64,000 nt of DNA from Methanomassiliicoccus sp. Its GTDB lineage: Archaea; Thermoplasmatota; Thermoplasmata; Methanomassiliicoccales; Methanomassiliicoccaceae. The position numbers and the translations under genes are program-made. Numbering within the stretch: position 1 is the stretch's first letter; each line of letters starts with the position of its first letter. The notes beneath the pieces were generated by a model. It made no database searches and was not told the origin of the DNA. It saw nothing but the letters and a program-made list of their open reading frames with translations. Where the stretch lies: NCBI GenBank assembly GCA_012719175.1, contig JAAYAX010000014.1, forward strand, positions 62,001-126,000. The letters are read 5' to 3'. This document shows positions 29,535-41,315 of the stretch, in pieces.

Positions 29535-30404
29535 ATGAGCGATCGCCATGTGACCATAGGGCTGGTACAGATGAGCATGACGCAGGACCCTGATACCAAT
29601 ATCCGGAAGGCCGGCCGTATGATAAAGGAGGCCGCACGGAGAGGCGCTGAGATCGTGTGCCTGCCCGAGCTCTTCACCACCCCATACTTCCCTCAGTACG
29701 ACACCTCGGAAGGCCGAGGCCGCGAGTTAGCCCCCCATGAGGCCATCCCTGGTCCTTCTACCACAGCGCTTTCCGAGGCGGCCGTGGAGTCCGGGGCCAT
29801 CGTGATCGGCGGCTCCATATACGAGGAGGAGGGCGATAGGCTCTTCAACACCGCTCCTGTGCTGGACGGGAACGGGCACCTGCTGGGCAAGTATCGCAAG
29901 ACCCATATACCCCACGATGAGAACTTCTTCGAGCAGAGCTTCTTCGATCCCGGCGACACCGGCTTCCAGGTGTTTGGCACCTCCCGCGGCCGCATCGGGG
30001 TTCTCATCTGTTACGACCAGTGGTACCCAGAGGCCGCGCGCTCCGTGGCCCTCATAGGCGCGGACATGGTGTTCTACCCCACAGCCATCGGGACGGTCAG
30101 AGGAATAGAGCAGTGGGAGGGTGATTGGCAGGAAGCCTGGGAGAACGTGATGCGTGGCCATGCCATCGCCAACGGAATGGTGGTGGCGGCCTGCAACCGG
30201 GTGGGTAACGAGGGGGGCATGGACTTCTGGGGAGGGAGCTTCGTCATCGACGCTTTCGGCAAGACCCTCTCCCGGGGCTCCTCCGAGGAGGAGATCGTGC
30301 TCGCCACCGTCGACCTGGAGCATGGTGAGAACGTCCGCCAGGGTTGGAGGTTCTTCCCCAACCGCCGCCCCGAATGCTATGCCAAGCTCACTGAGCCCTT
30401 GTAG
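29535..30404 (+). CDS. aguB: N-carbamoylputrescine amidase
   Basis: A 289-residue nitrilase-superfamily enzyme converting N-carbamoylputrescine to putrescine. The catalytic triad is visible: Glu in CLPELFTTPYFPQ, Lys in KYRKTHIPHDENF and Cys in GVLICYDQWYPEAAR. The QSFFDPGDTGFQVF and WRFFPNRRPE segments are typical for AguB. GGAGG lies just before the ATG. It is followed after 25 bases by agmatine deiminase, so the pair turns agmatine into putrescine. It ends in TAG. Confidence 0.95.
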   Translation: MSDRHVTIGLVQMSMTQDPDTNIRKAGRMIKEAARRGAEIVCLPELFTTPYFPQYDTSEGRGRELAPHEAIPGPSTTALSEAAVESGAIVIGGSIYEEEGDRLFNTAPVLDGNGHLLGKYRKTHIPHDENFFEQSFFDPGDTGFQVFGTSRGRIGVLICYDQWYPEAARSVALIGADMVFYPTAIGTVRGIEQWEGDWQEAWENVMRGHAIANGMVVAACNRVGNEGGMDFWGGSFVIDAFGKTLSRGSSEEEIVLATVDLEHGENVRQGWRFFPNRRPECYAKLTEPL

Positions 30405-30429: not shown

Positions 30430-31512
30430 ATGGAAAAGACGACCCCTAGGAACCTGGACTATTATATGCCACCTGAATGGGCCAGGCACGAGGCCACCTG
30501 GCTCTCCTGGCCGAAGAATCCCCTGACCTTCCCCGGCGATGTGCTGGAAGGGGTCGAGGACACCTTTGTCCAGATGATCGCCGCCCTCAGCCCGGGGGAG
30601 AAGGTGAAGCTCCTCGTGAATGATGGGGCGATGGAGGAGCGCGCCCGCAAGAAATTGAGAGGAGGGGACGTCAACATGGAGAACGTGCTTTTCCTGCGCA
30701 TCCCCAGCGCCGATGTGTGGATACGCGACTACGGACCCACCTTCCTCCTTAACCAGAAACGCCCATGGAAGGCCGGGGTGAAGTGGCGGTTCAACGCCTG
30801 GGGCGGCAAGTACGATGATCTCATGTACGACGACCGGACGGGAGAGGACATCGTCCAAAACGCCCGGGTGAAGGTGTTCCGTCCCGGGATCGTCATGGAG
30901 GGCGGGTCCATTGATGTGAACGGACGGGGAGTGGTGCTCACCACCGAGCAGTGCCTGCTCAACCCCAACCGCAACCCGCACCTCTCCAAGGAGGACATAG
31001 AAACCTACCTGGAGCAGTACCTCAACATCAATGAGGTGGTGTGGCTGAGGTCGGGGATCGAGGGCGACGATACTGACGGGCATGTTGATGACTTCGCACG
31101 ATTCGTGAGCCCGGATACAGTGGTGTGCGCCCATTCCGAGACCGGGGGCGGGCACAACCCCCAGGTGCTGCAGGCCAACCTGGACATCCTCACCTCGTAC
31201 CGTGACCAATACGGCCGTCCCCTTGAGGTGCTGACGCTACCCATGCCCGAGCCCATACCCCTTCCTGAGGAGGAGAGGGTGCTGCCTGCCAGCTATGCCA
31301 ACTTCTACATCGGCAACGACGTTGTGCTCGTACCGGTGTTCGATGACTCTCATGACCAGGAGGCGGTCAGACTTCTAGAGAGGTGCTTCCCCGGGCGCAA
31401 GACAGTGCCCATACTGGCCCGCGACCTGGTGTACGGCTATGGCGGGTTCCACTGCGCCACCCAACAGGAACCGGCTGTGGATACGAAGCTCTTCGAGGGA
31501 CTGCAAAAATGA
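30430..31512 (+). CDS. aguA: Agmatine deiminase
   Basis: A 360-residue guanidine-modifying enzyme hydrolysing agmatine to N-carbamoylputrescine and ammonia. Characteristic are MPPEWARHEATWLSWP, DVWIRDYGPTFL, FNAWGGKYD, EGGSIDVNGRG, DGHVDDFARFV and the C-terminal catalytic Cys in YGGFHCATQQEP. Start MEKTTPRN at 30430 follows GGAGGA. With aguB upstream it gives a complete agmatine-to-putrescine route; arginine decarboxylase is not in the window. Confidence 0.96.
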   Translation: MEKTTPRNLDYYMPPEWARHEATWLSWPKNPLTFPGDVLEGVEDTFVQMIAALSPGEKVKLLVNDGAMEERARKKLRGGDVNMENVLFLRIPSADVWIRDYGPTFLLNQKRPWKAGVKWRFNAWGGKYDDLMYDDRTGEDIVQNARVKVFRPGIVMEGGSIDVNGRGVVLTTEQCLLNPNRNPHLSKEDIETYLEQYLNINEVVWLRSGIEGDDTDGHVDDFARFVSPDTVVCAHSETGGGHNPQVLQANLDILTSYRDQYGRPLEVLTLPMPEPIPLPEEERVLPASYANFYIGNDVVLVPVFDDSHDQEAVRLLERCFPGRKTVPILARDLVYGYGGFHCATQQEPAVDTKLFEGLQK

Positions 31513-35590: not shown

Positions 35591-36613
35591 ATGAGAGTGG
35601 TGAACGGCGAGCAGAGCACGGAGACCAGAGCGGTATGGTTCGACGACGGCAGGGTCCGGATGATAGACCAACGTCTCATACCCCAGCGATTCCAGGTCCT
35701 AGATCTCCTGGACCATACGGAGGTGGCCGAGGCCATCAGGAACATGACGGTAAGGGGGGCTCCGTCCATAGGGGCTGCGGCGGCCTACGGCATGGCCCTG
35801 GCGGCGCGCAATGGAGTGAACCTCGATATGGCCGCGGCGGAGCTCAAGGGAACGCGGCCCACGGCCTTCGACCTCTTCTATGCGGTGGACCACATGATGA
35901 CCATGCTGGAGCGGGGCGACGATCCTGTCCAGGCGGCCGATGGCTACGCCGATCAGGTGGTGGAGAGGTGCCGCCGCATCGGGAACCACGGGGCCGAGCT
36001 CATCGAGGACGAGAACAACATCATGACCCACTGCAACGCAGGTGCCCTGGCTACAGTGGACATAGGGACCGCCCTCGCCCCTATACGAACGGCCTGGCAC
36101 AGGGGACGGCGCATATATGTCTACGTTTCCGAGACCCGACCTCGCCTTCAGGGGATGAAGCTCACCGCCTGGGAGCTGTACAACGAGGGGATCCCTCACT
36201 CCATCATCGTTGACGGGGCGGCCGGTCATTTCCTTAGAAAAGATGTGAACCTGGTGATCGTGGGCGCGGACCGCATAGCCGCCAATGGGGACTTCGCCAA
36301 CAAGATAGGCACATTCGACAAGGCGGTCCTGTGCCGCGAGCTGGCCGTCCCATTCTATGTGGCCGCGCCCGTCTCCAGCTTCGACTTCTCCATCGCCACC
36401 GGCAACGAGATAGTCATCGAGGACCGCTCCGAGGACGAGGTCACCCACGTGGGCAGGGAGCGGCTCGCTCCGGAGGGATCGCCCGCTCTCAACCCCTCCT
36501 TCGACATGACCCCCGCGAAGTACGTTACCGGCTTCATCACCGAGGTGGGGATACTGCGTCCTTCAGAAATAGAGCGGGTACGCAAGGCCCAGGTCACTGG
36601 GGATGAGATCTGA
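35591..36613 (+). CDS. mtnA: S-methyl-5-thioribose-1-phosphate isomerase-like protein
   Basis: A 340-residue aldose-1-phosphate isomerase of the eIF2B-like family. Signatures are TVRGAPSIGAAAAYG, ILTHCNAG-type NIMTHCNAGALAT with the catalytic Cys, and GADRIAANGDFANKIGT with the catalytic Asp. It isomerises methylthioribose-1-P and probably 5-deoxyribose-1-P. TATA-like TTTAGTAT lies about 30 bases upstream, giving a near-leaderless message. The TGA overlaps the next ATG (TGATG) of a class II aldolase, which points to a salvage shunt for methylthioadenosine or 5'-deoxyadenosine. Confidence 0.9.
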   Translation: MRVVNGEQSTETRAVWFDDGRVRMIDQRLIPQRFQVLDLLDHTEVAEAIRNMTVRGAPSIGAAAAYGMALAARNGVNLDMAAAELKGTRPTAFDLFYAVDHMMTMLERGDDPVQAADGYADQVVERCRRIGNHGAELIEDENNIMTHCNAGALATVDIGTALAPIRTAWHRGRRIYVYVSETRPRLQGMKLTAWELYNEGIPHSIIVDGAAGHFLRKDVNLVIVGADRIAANGDFANKIGTFDKAVLCRELAVPFYVAAPVSSFDFSIATGNEIVIEDRSEDEVTHVGRERLAPEGSPALNPSFDMTPAKYVTGFITEVGILRPSEIERVRKAQVTGDEI

Positions 36614-37236
36614 TGGACGAGGGCAGGGGCAGGAAGGACCTCGCGGATATAGCGCGTTTATCCTATGAACGACGCCTCACCTTCGGATCGGGGGGCAACC
36701 TCAGCCTCCGCTTGGACGAGAGCACCATCCTGATAACGCCATCGGGGACCATTAAGGGTCTCCTCTTCCCGGAACAGATTATCAAAGTGGACCTGGGAAC
36801 GGGCAAGGCCGAGCGCGGAAGGCCGTCCATGGAGACCCCTTTTCATACTGGCCTATACCGTGCCCGTCCGGACGTAGGGGCGGTGGTGCACCTGCACCCC
36901 CCCTCCTGCACCACGATGGCGTTGCTGGGCCGTGAGCTGCGGCCGGCCATAACACCAGAGGGGGTCCTCGTTCTGGGGCAGAAGGTGCCCATGATCGGCT
37001 ACGCCACTCCGGGATCGTCGGAGCTGGCGGAAAACATCGTCAACGGCCTGACGAAGGATAACGCTGCGCTGCTGAAAAGCCATGGGGCGCTGGCAGTTGG
37101 TAAGGACATCATGGAGGCCTTCGCCCGCATGGAGACGATGGAGTACATCGCCTTCCTTCAGCTAAGGTGCGAAGAGCTGGGAGAACTTCCTGACCTTCCC
37201 CCCGAGGAAGTGGCCAGGATGACATCCAAAGATTGA
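36613..37236 (+). CDS. Class II aldolase (fuculose-1-phosphate aldolase-like)
   Basis: A 207-residue zinc aldolase with FGSGGNLSLRLDE, ILITPSGTIKGLL, ETPFHTGLYRARPDVGAVVHLHPPSC (Glu and HLH zinc ligands) and LLKSHGALAVGKD. Such enzymes split methylthioribulose-1-P or deoxyribulose-1-P into DHAP and an aldehyde. Pairing with MtnA mirrors the pathway shown in Methanocaldococcus and the bacterial DHAP shunt, so it is likely the second step here. It is translationally coupled to mtnA and followed by nop5 after 27 bases. Confidence 0.88.
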   Translation: MDEGRGRKDLADIARLSYERRLTFGSGGNLSLRLDESTILITPSGTIKGLLFPEQIIKVDLGTGKAERGRPSMETPFHTGLYRARPDVGAVVHLHPPSCTTMALLGRELRPAITPEGVLVLGQKVPMIGYATPGSSELAENIVNGLTKDNAALLKSHGALAVGKDIMEAFARMETMEYIAFLQLRCEELGELPDLPPEEVARMTSKD

Positions 37237-38531: not shown

Positions 38532-38915
38532 ATGTGGACTCAGGCTGAGGTAAGGGAGCTCAAGGTCGGCCGCTATATGCTCATCGACGATGAACCCTGC
38601 AAGATATTATCCATTGACACTTCCAAGCCCGGTAAGCACGGCGAGGCCAAGAGCCGGATCGATGCTGTCGGCCTTTACGATGGGAAGAAGCGCAGCGTGG
38701 TGCATCCGGTCAAGCATAAGGTCCAGGTCCCTATGATCGATAAGAGGAAGGGGCAGATTTTGCACATATCCGGCGATGAGGCCCAGATGATGGATCTGGA
38801 GACCTTCGAGCAGTTCTCGCTGCCCATCGATGAGGAGCTGCGGGGCCAGATCAACGCCGGGGACGAGGTCCTATATATGGTGGCAATGGGCAAGCGAAAG
38901 ATCACCAAGGTCTGA
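38532..38915 (+). CDS. aif5A: Translation initiation factor aIF5A
   Basis: A 127-residue factor helping the ribosome past difficult peptide bonds. The hypusine loop is present as [12 protein letters not shown] near residues 35-46, with the modified Lys in PGKHG, followed by the OB-fold C-domain ending MGKRKITKV. It is followed after 12 bases by an agmatinase-family gene. In some archaea agmatine is the source of the aminobutyl group of hypusine, so this linkage is meaningful. Confidence 0.96.
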
Positions 38916-38927
38916 GAAGGTAACCTC

Positions 38928-39821
38928 ATGCCCGCTACGGGTGTTAGCTTCCTGGGGGCTGATGCCTCCTATCCGGAAGCGAAGTTCGTGGTGGTCGGGA
39001 TCCCCTTCGATCTCACCACCTCCTTCCGCCCAGGGGCACGAGCCGCTCCCAACGCGGTCCGGGAGGCTTCATATCATTTTGAGCAGTTCATGCTCGAGCA
39101 CGGCCTCGACCTGAGCGAGGTCAAGGTCCATGACCTCGGCAACCTCCGGGACTTCATGTCAGTGGAGGACATGATGGATGAGACCAAGGAGGTGGCCAAG
39201 GGCATCGTCGGTGATGGTAAGTTCCCTATCCTGCTCGGCGGGGAGCATACCATAACCATCCCGGCCATCGAGGCCTTCGATGACATCGGCATCATCTTCA
39301 TCAACGCTCATCTGAACTACAAGAATGCCCGAATGGGGCAGCGCTCCTGTCATGACACCGTTGCCAAGAGGGCAGCGGAGCATGTGGGCAAGGACAACAT
39401 CCTGGTCTTCGGCGTGCGTTCCATCTCTCATGAGGAGCATGTCAGCGGCAACCTGCCGGAGTACATCGATGCCTACACCATCGCCACGGAAGGGGTGGAG
39501 AAGGCGTTCAAGCGCGCCCTCAACATCATCAAGAAGGACAAGATCTACCTTAGCCTGGACATGGATGGACTGGACCCCGCCTTCGCCCCTGCTACGGGGA
39601 TGCCCGAGCCCTTTGGCTTGACGTCTTTGGACGTCAAGAAGTGCATCAACATGCTGGGCCCACGTTTAGTGGGGATGGATGTGGTAGAGATATCCCCTCC
39701 CTATGACAAGGGCAACACAGCCGCCCTCGGCGCCAGAATGGTGCAGGAGGCCATCGCAGTGGCATGGAAGTATCAGAAGGTCGAGGAGCGGACCGGAACA
39801 CGACCGTTCTGGCGGCGCTAG
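38928..39821 (+). CDS. Agmatinase/ureohydrolase homologue with altered metal site
   Basis: A 297-residue ureohydrolase-fold protein. GGEHTITIPAIE keeps the first His, and LSLDMDGLDPAFAPATGMPEPFGL keeps the third motif with both Asp. The middle DAHxD motif reads FINAHLNYKN: both metal-binding Asp residues are Asn (codons AAC at about 39303 and 39315), though the His is kept. Known agmatinases and arginases use all these ligands, so activity is likely changed or lost. Its position just after aIF5A suggests a role in deoxyhypusine formation or its control. It ends in TAG. Confidence 0.85.
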   Translation: MPATGVSFLGADASYPEAKFVVVGIPFDLTTSFRPGARAAPNAVREASYHFEQFMLEHGLDLSEVKVHDLGNLRDFMSVEDMMDETKEVAKGIVGDGKFPILLGGEHTITIPAIEAFDDIGIIFINAHLNYKNARMGQRSCHDTVAKRAAEHVGKDNILVFGVRSISHEEHVSGNLPEYIDAYTIATEGVEKAFKRALNIIKKDKIYLSLDMDGLDPAFAPATGMPEPFGLTSLDVKKCINMLGPRLVGMDVVEISPPYDKGNTAALGARMVQEAIAVAWKYQKVEERTGTRPFWRR

Positions 39822-39962: not shown

Positions 39963-41315
39963 TCAACGTGCCAGGAGGTCTACCAGCACCTTCTCGCATT
40001 CCTCGGAGCGCCTTTTGGCATCCTCGCCGGTCCTGGCCTCGGAGTAGATGCGGAACAGGGGCTCGGTGCCTGACGGCCGCACCAGCGTCCAGCCGTCATC
40101 ATAGCATATCTTAACCCCGTCAGTGGTGTCCACCCGCTGAGAGCTGTAGTGCTCCACCAGGGCAGCCAGCACGCTTTCCTTGCATTCGTCCGAGCATATC
40201 AGTTTGCGCTTGTCCTGGCTGTACGTGGGGATGCTGTCGACGAGCTTGGACAGCGGGCCGCTGCGTGTGACGATCTCCAGCATCTTGGCCACGGTCATGG
40301 CGCCATCGCGGCAGTACTGATGCTTGGGGAAGATAAGGCCACCGTTCTCCTCCCCGCCGAAGAGCGCTCTCACCTCTATCATCTTCCTGGCCACGACCGG
40401 CGATCCCACGCGGGTGTAGATGATATCTCCTCCCGCCCTTCTGACGACGTCCTCCACGGCCATCGATGACGATACCGGGGTCACCACGGTGCCCCCTCCG
40501 TTCTCCCGGACCATGGCCTCCGCGGTTATGGCCAGGGACTTGTCGCCATAGAGGTAGCGTCCCTTGTCGTCGACAAAGATCGTGCGGTCCGCATCCCCAT
40601 CATGGGCTATGCCCATGTCCGCCCCTGTGTCCTTGACCATTGCTATGAGGTCACGGAGGTGGGACTCCACTGGTTCCGAGGGGTGGCCCGGGAATGTACC
40701 CTGAGGATTGCAATTAATGGTTATGGCGCGGACGTTCAGATCGTCCAGGAGCATGGGCGTGGACACCACACCCGCGCCGTTGGCGCAGTCCAGGACTACC
40801 GTCAATCCCGCGCCCCGGATGGCATCGGCATCCACCAGCTTCTTGACGGAATCCAGGTAATCATGGACCGCGCCCGACGCCTGGCGCATCTGGCCTACGG
40901 CGTTCCAGGGCATACTGCGGAACGTCCTGGTGAAATACAGCCTCTCTATCTCCTCCTCTTTGGAGCGAGGCATCTCTGTCCCGTCAGAGTCTATGCACTT
41001 TATGCCATTGAACTCGGGAGGGTTGTGGGATGCGGTGATCATTATGCCACCGGCCAGCCCGTTGTTCTTGACGTAGTGCTGCACCACTGGGGTGGGCACC
41101 AGGCCCAGGTCCAATGCTTGGGCTCCGGCGCACATCAGTCCCGAGGCCACCGCGCTCTTGATCATGGCGGCGGATGTCCGGGAATCGTTGCCGATGGCCA
41201 CGCGGCCGCCCATGAAGGTGCCGATCGCCTTACCCAGGTCCATGGCCAGCTGGACGTTCATGTCCTTATTGATCACACCTCTGACACCATTGGTTCCGAA
41301 CAGCCTGCCTGCCAT
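39963..41315 (-). CDS. glmM: Phosphoglucosamine mutase / phosphomannomutase, paralogue 2
   Basis: A 450-residue alpha-D-phosphohexomutase. Signatures: FGTNGVRGV near the N-terminus, phosphoserine loop TASHNPPEFNGIK (about residue 94), metal loop AHDGDADRTIFVD, GGEENGGLIF (sugar loop GEENGG) and RPSGTEPLFRIYSEA. The sugar loop EENGG rather than EPSGT of paralogue 1 suggests the two differ in sugar specificity. It is transcribed after the DUF47 gene. Confidence 0.9.
   Translation of the reverse strand: MAGRLFGTNGVRGVINKDMNVQLAMDLGKAIGTFMGGRVAIGNDSRTSAAMIKSAVASGLMCAGAQALDLGLVPTPVVQHYVKNNGLAGGIMITASHNPPEFNGIKCIDSDGTEMPRSKEEEIERLYFTRTFRSMPWNAVGQMRQASGAVHDYLDSVKKLVDADAIRGAGLTVVLDCANGAGVVSTPMLLDDLNVRAITINCNPQGTFPGHPSEPVESHLRDLIAMVKDTGADMGIAHDGDADRTIFVDDKGRYLYGDKSLAITAEAMVRENGGGTVVTPVSSSMAVEDVVRRAGGDIIYTRVGSPVVARKMIEVRALFGGEENGGLIFPKHQYCRDGAMTVAKMLEIVTRSGPLSKLVDSIPTYSQDKRKLICSDECKESVLAALVEHYSSQRVDTTDGVKICYDDGWTLVRPSGTEPLFRIYSEARTGEDAKRRSEECEKVLVDLLAR

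Follow-up and report, generated by a model that had tools for sequence, protein, structure and literature searches.

A ligand-altered agmatinase orthologue beside aIF5A in Methanomassiliicoccus: a conserved, putatively non-canonical ureohydrolase associated with an alternative agmatine route

Results

The locus and its metal site

The window, a 64,000-nucleotide stretch of contig JAAYAX010000014.1 from Methanomassiliicoccus sp., carries a gene for an agmatinase orthologue flanked by the genes for aIF5A and a phosphomutase-like protein (Table 1). According to the ORF calls, 12 bases separate the aIF5A stop from the start of the agmatinase orthologue, and aIF5A also adjoins agmatinase in the related genomes that retain the gene. 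Two further genes of the window were assigned to aguB and aguA on the basis of the best NCBIfam match, the PF04371 score and their adjacency. At window positions 35591-37236, mtnA (S-methyl-5-thioribose-1-phosphate isomerase) and an adjoining class II aldolase gene suggest methylthioadenosine salvage, though spermidine synthase (PF01564) scored over its cut-off in four genomes only and was not found in the genome of the window.

Table 1. Genes and active-site motifs at the agmatinase locus, in window coordinates.
Feature	Position	Strand	Basis and remarks
aguB, N-carbamoylputrescine amidase	29535..30404	+	Best match TIGR03381, 271 bits, below curated cut-off
aguA, agmatine deiminase	30430..31512	+	PF04371 over cut-off; NF010070 and TIGR03380 best, below cut-offs
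aIF5A	38532..38915	+	NF003076/TIGR00037; immediately upstream of agmatinase orthologue
Agmatinase orthologue, D126N and D130N	38928..39821	+	TIGR01230/PF00491; 297 aa, ATG start
GGEHT, residues 104-108	39237..39251	+	H107, MnA ligand, intact; sequence and orthologue alignment
NAHLN, residues 126-130	39303..39317	+	Codons AAC GCT CAT CTG AAC; sequence
SCHDT, residues 140-144	39345..39359	+	Catalytic His H142 kept; sequence and alignment
SLDMDGLDP, residues 209-217	39552..39578	+	Metal ligands D211 and D213 intact; sequence and alignment
Phosphomutase-like gene	39963..41315	-	Downstream of agmatinase orthologue

The encoded protein belongs to the agmatinase family by its scores (TIGR01230, 204 bits against a cut-off of 174; PF00491, 238 bits), and a profile search found it to be the single PF00491 protein of the source genome (2.42 Mb, 99.6% complete). 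The original prediction that the DAHxD motif here reads NAHLN, with AAC for both Asn codons and with GGEHT and SxDxDxxDP intact, was confirmed in this reading frame; in the alignment the same position is DAHLD in intact relatives and DAHLN in sister species.

In the E. coli agmatinase, MnA is liganded by H126, D149, D153 and D230, and MnB by D149, H151, D230 and D232, D149 bridging both metals and D153 serving as an MnA ligand, while H163 acts as the proton shuttle and E274 as the guanidinium ligand (PMC8125230). The set matched by motif in the window protein comprises H107, N126, H128, N130, D211, D213, H142 and E254, the last within a VEISP motif, with the lost D126 and D130 corresponding to E. 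coli D149 and D153; direct alignment was made only to 3pzl, the agmatine ureohydrolase of Thermoplasma volcanium, and the correspondence of ligands agrees. Of the six positions that bind metal (H, D, H, D, D, D), two are thus Asn, and the catalytic His and the guanidinium-binding Glu are kept as H142 and E254. A structure model of the protein (pLDDT 86) predicts an intact fold and has 3pzl as its best PDB match (TM 0.86). The low model confidence at residues 211-230 is not peculiar to this protein, since the model of the intact orthologue of genome G009 has the same.

Distribution and stepwise loss of the ligands

Among 147 genomes of Methanomassiliicoccales searched, 125 contained an agmatinase orthologue, and these sequences were aligned. 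D130 is replaced by Asn in seven of the 125, exactly the seven genomes of the window's genus (g1), and D126 in three only, with DAHLN found in four sister species of the genus. Two metagenome-assembled genomes, Methanomassiliicoccus sp. QR_Bin.16 (G003) and Methanomassiliicoccales PtaU1.Bin030 (G004), the nearest named records, carry NAHLN in proteins 98% identical to that of the window. The comparison with close relatives proposed earlier therefore found NAHLN kept in two further assemblies, and relatives that do not all have DAHxD; a read error was rejected, as the motif is common to three separate assemblies. The loss of two Asp residues is real and conserved, but it is genus-wide for D130N only, D126N being restricted to the NAHLN clade.

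A third substitution, H107 to Arg (GGEH to GGER), occurs in all nine orthologues of g6, another genus in a different family (L023-L026, L029, L040-L042 and L104), with all Asp ligands intact. No ligand substitution other than D126N, D130N and H107R was found among the 125 orthologues: H128, H142, D211 and D213 are invariant, and 109 sequences have no substitution, one incomplete sequence lacking the H107 region. In a tree of 47 orthologues, g1, the NAHLN clade and g6 are each monophyletic with strong support, and g1 and g6 sit at two separate places. Because the four sister species carry DAHLN, the data are most simply explained by D130N arising first in g1 and D126N afterwards, with g6 as a separate event. 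The initial loss in each altered lineage fell on a ligand of MnA alone, at a different residue in the two cases, the MnB ligands then still being kept; in E. coli agmatinase MnA is the weakly bound metal and MnB occupies the high-affinity site (PMC8125230).

The surroundings of the active site also differ. Residue 143 is Asp in all seven g1 genomes, whereas relatives from other genera invariably have Ala or Ser. R132 and S141, which hardly change elsewhere, are variable in g1 and in g6 alike. One member of the genus, G005, has a second, divergent PF00491 protein (L158:3010-3912, minus strand, 79.6 bits), with GGDC for GGDH and DGHGD for DAHxD, which is absent in the other members. An apparent C-terminal frameshift in the G005 agmatinase orthologue was traced to an assembly gap of two N and involves no mutation.

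Selection on the altered gene

Codon-model estimates of omega were 0.070 for g1 and 0.060 for g6, with 0.034-0.055 in four intact groups. Between NAHLN genomes, dN/dS was 0.027 for G000 against G003 or G004 and 0.000 for G003 against G004 (250 codons), the full genes of the latter pair showing 23 base differences and zero amino-acid changes. These low ratios indicate that the agmatinase orthologue is kept for a function and is not decaying. Loss of a conserved metal motif with selection retained, a combination to which a pseudoenzyme would add loss of activity, is what was found here.

The aguA/aguB route and agmatinase loss

PF04371 was detected in 34 of the 147 genomes, every one of them from family f1 or f3, and a strong aguB-like match (>150 bits, mostly adjoining aguA) was confined to the same two families. 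Among the good-quality genomes (completeness of 90% or more, contamination of 5% or less), 25 carried aguA, of which 10 were without ureohydrolase, 11 had a ligand-substituted form and four an intact one; all 49 genomes without aguA had the gene, with no ligand substitution (Fisher p about 8e-15 for aguA against agmatinase state, phylogeny ignored). By parsimony, the change from intact to not intact took place in an estimated six independent events, four losses and two ligand changes, all in f1 and f3, the count coming from an aIF5A and phosphomutase tree of 35 genomes with several unresolved forks. aguAB may have been gained just once in the order. The earlier suggestion that aguA/aguB released agmatinase from its catalytic duty fits this order-wide pattern of loss and substitution.

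At the agmatinase-less loci of the window's family, aIF5A directly faces the phosphomutase-like gene. Apparent agmatinase remnants at deleted loci were really the G005 read-through tail, beyond the agmatinase gene. Deoxyhypusine synthase (DHS) was present in all 61 close genomes, aIF5A in 59 and arginine decarboxylase in 58. In 12 genomes of the order, 10 of them of good quality and all 12 with aguA, aIF5A and DHS occur without any PF00491 protein. Most genomes outside f2 (f1, f3-f6) have two DHS-family proteins and most f2 genomes one; the additional protein is possibly a synthase of the homospermidine or caldomycin type (compare PMC10981699).

Discussion

Our analysis suggests that in this lineage the aguA/aguB pair took over putrescine formation and that the window protein is a constrained, non-canonical ureohydrolase, most likely non-catalytic or near-inactive, a reading that we hold with somewhat more confidence than doubt. 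On this reading it would be a pseudoenzyme, with weak catalysis by a single metal as the upper limit of its activity. The aguA/aguB route would convert agmatine to N-carbamoylputrescine and then to putrescine, and since this route is present agmatinase could have become dispensable for putrescine supply. Some relatives would then have deleted agmatinase, whereas g1 would have kept it and lost the MnA site through D130N, the bridging ligand going next in the NAHLN clade (D126N), with R132, S141, A143D and the GTGTPE loop changing around the active site. Loss of MnA and of the canonical activity is thus the probable outcome in the window protein. The predicted fold and the strong purifying selection would argue for a function independent of canonical binuclear agmatine hydrolysis, and a new role might use the retained guanidinium pocket (E254, H142, D211 and D213) in the context of aIF5A, with which the gene is presumably co-expressed. 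As to what that role may be, we offer only tentatively an agmatine or guanidine sensor, or a partner of aIF5A or DHS, that would have evolved without duplication after the aguAB takeover, in parallel with a second genus that arrived there through another MnA ligand.

The main rival to a non-catalytic role is that the protein is still a hydrolase, working with a single metal at the MnB site (H128, D211, D213 and a neutral N126), with D143 perhaps replacing the D130 carboxylate, and weakly active on agmatine or another guanidino compound. We consider this possible but rather improbable. In its favour, both altered lineages first lost an MnA-only ligand while the MnB ligands stayed, A143D is found in every member of the genus and nowhere else, and H142 and E254 are kept; moreover, the E. 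coli enzyme does not work without a minimum of one Mn, bound at the high-affinity site (PMC8125230). Loss of the bridging D126 in the NAHLN clade would, however, also weaken MnB, and the activity would be redundant given aguAB. Since the bridging ligand is gone as well, a non-catalytic or near-inactive role is favoured for the NAHLN clade, while the DAHLN sister species may be weak enzymes. Against our preferred reading, the window protein may itself still be a weak agmatinase, because the E. coli D153N variant keeps about 5% activity and the EDTA-treated enzyme with MnB alone keeps almost half of its activity (PMC8125230). All other catalytic residues are intact, although a protein that only binds could dispense with them, and the protein still passes the TIGR01230 agmatinase cut-off.

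The relation to aIF5A bears on a second alternative. The tie between archaeal agmatinase and deoxyhypusine invoked in the original prediction is indeed published, but as a proposed model: agmatinase would either make putrescine or trim agmatine once this has been attached to aIF5A, and trimming on aIF5A was favoured for Haloferax, where HVO_2299 is essential (PMC5178350). The window protein could accordingly be seen as hydrolysing agmatine that aIF5A already carries (model d of Prunetti et al.), its active site having been remodelled to accept a protein. Although adjacency to aIF5A in related genomes keeping the gene and the Haloferax precedent speak for it, we regard this as very unlikely, as the metal ligands are lost and the 12 genomes with aIF5A and DHS but no PF00491 protein indicate that the step is not obligatory in the order. 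Because such species exist, we would argue that agmatinase is not needed on aIF5A itself in Methanomassiliicoccales, and the pattern fits a role in putrescine supply. A subunit that binds no metal and pairs with an active ureohydrolase, comparable to MetCb or MefH-beta, has precedents for ligand loss (PMC11271267, PMC11399263), yet it is largely refuted by the single-copy result, with no second PF00491 gene in the genus save the divergent G005 paralogue, and seems highly improbable. An early pseudogene or a sequencing error, to which the changed sites of the active-site loops and the outright loss of the gene in related genera might point, is just as hard to credit, being refuted by the intact reading frame, omega values of 0.00-0.07 and residues common to three separate assemblies.

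A single order here offers a graded natural series, from intact through one ligand lost and two lost to deleted, tied to a replacement pathway. The agmatinase-less species touch on the question of whether free putrescine is used for deoxyhypusine synthesis or agmatine is trimmed on aIF5A, and point to free-putrescine supply, at least in this order. The naming of these ligand-altered proteins as agmatinase by automatic annotation is also a warning.

By title and abstract, no such case was found among the papers listed on agmatinase in Methanomassiliicoccales or on agmatinase with hypusine in archaea. Among known systems, the Trypanosoma brucei arginase-like protein (Hai et al. 2015) has reportedly lost more ligands than the window protein, which keeps four of six and whose loss, unlike that of the trypanosomal protein, tracks a replacement pathway. 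Both retain the ureohydrolase fold after metal-ligand loss, and later papers that cite the T. brucei protein describe the classical activity as absent (PMC5602898, PMC11271267), arginine not being converted to ornithine (PMC5602898). The MetCb and MefH-beta subunits of metformin hydrolase likewise have a degenerate metal site kept by selection, but three to five of their six ligands are changed (PMC11271267), a range outside which the two changes of the window protein fall; they are thought to derive from duplication and are paired with an active adjacent subunit, whereas the window's genome, with one PF00491 match, yielded no adjacent active paralogue. The closest relation is to the archaeal aIF5A-linked agmatinase (HVO_2299 type; 3pzl), of which, as judged from sequence, the window gene is a vertical orthologue, the orthology being direct within the order. 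Fold, gene neighbour, catalytic His and guanidinium-binding Glu are held in common with that enzyme, from which the window protein departs in two of the six metal ligands, in R132 and S141, and in the GTGTPE loop.
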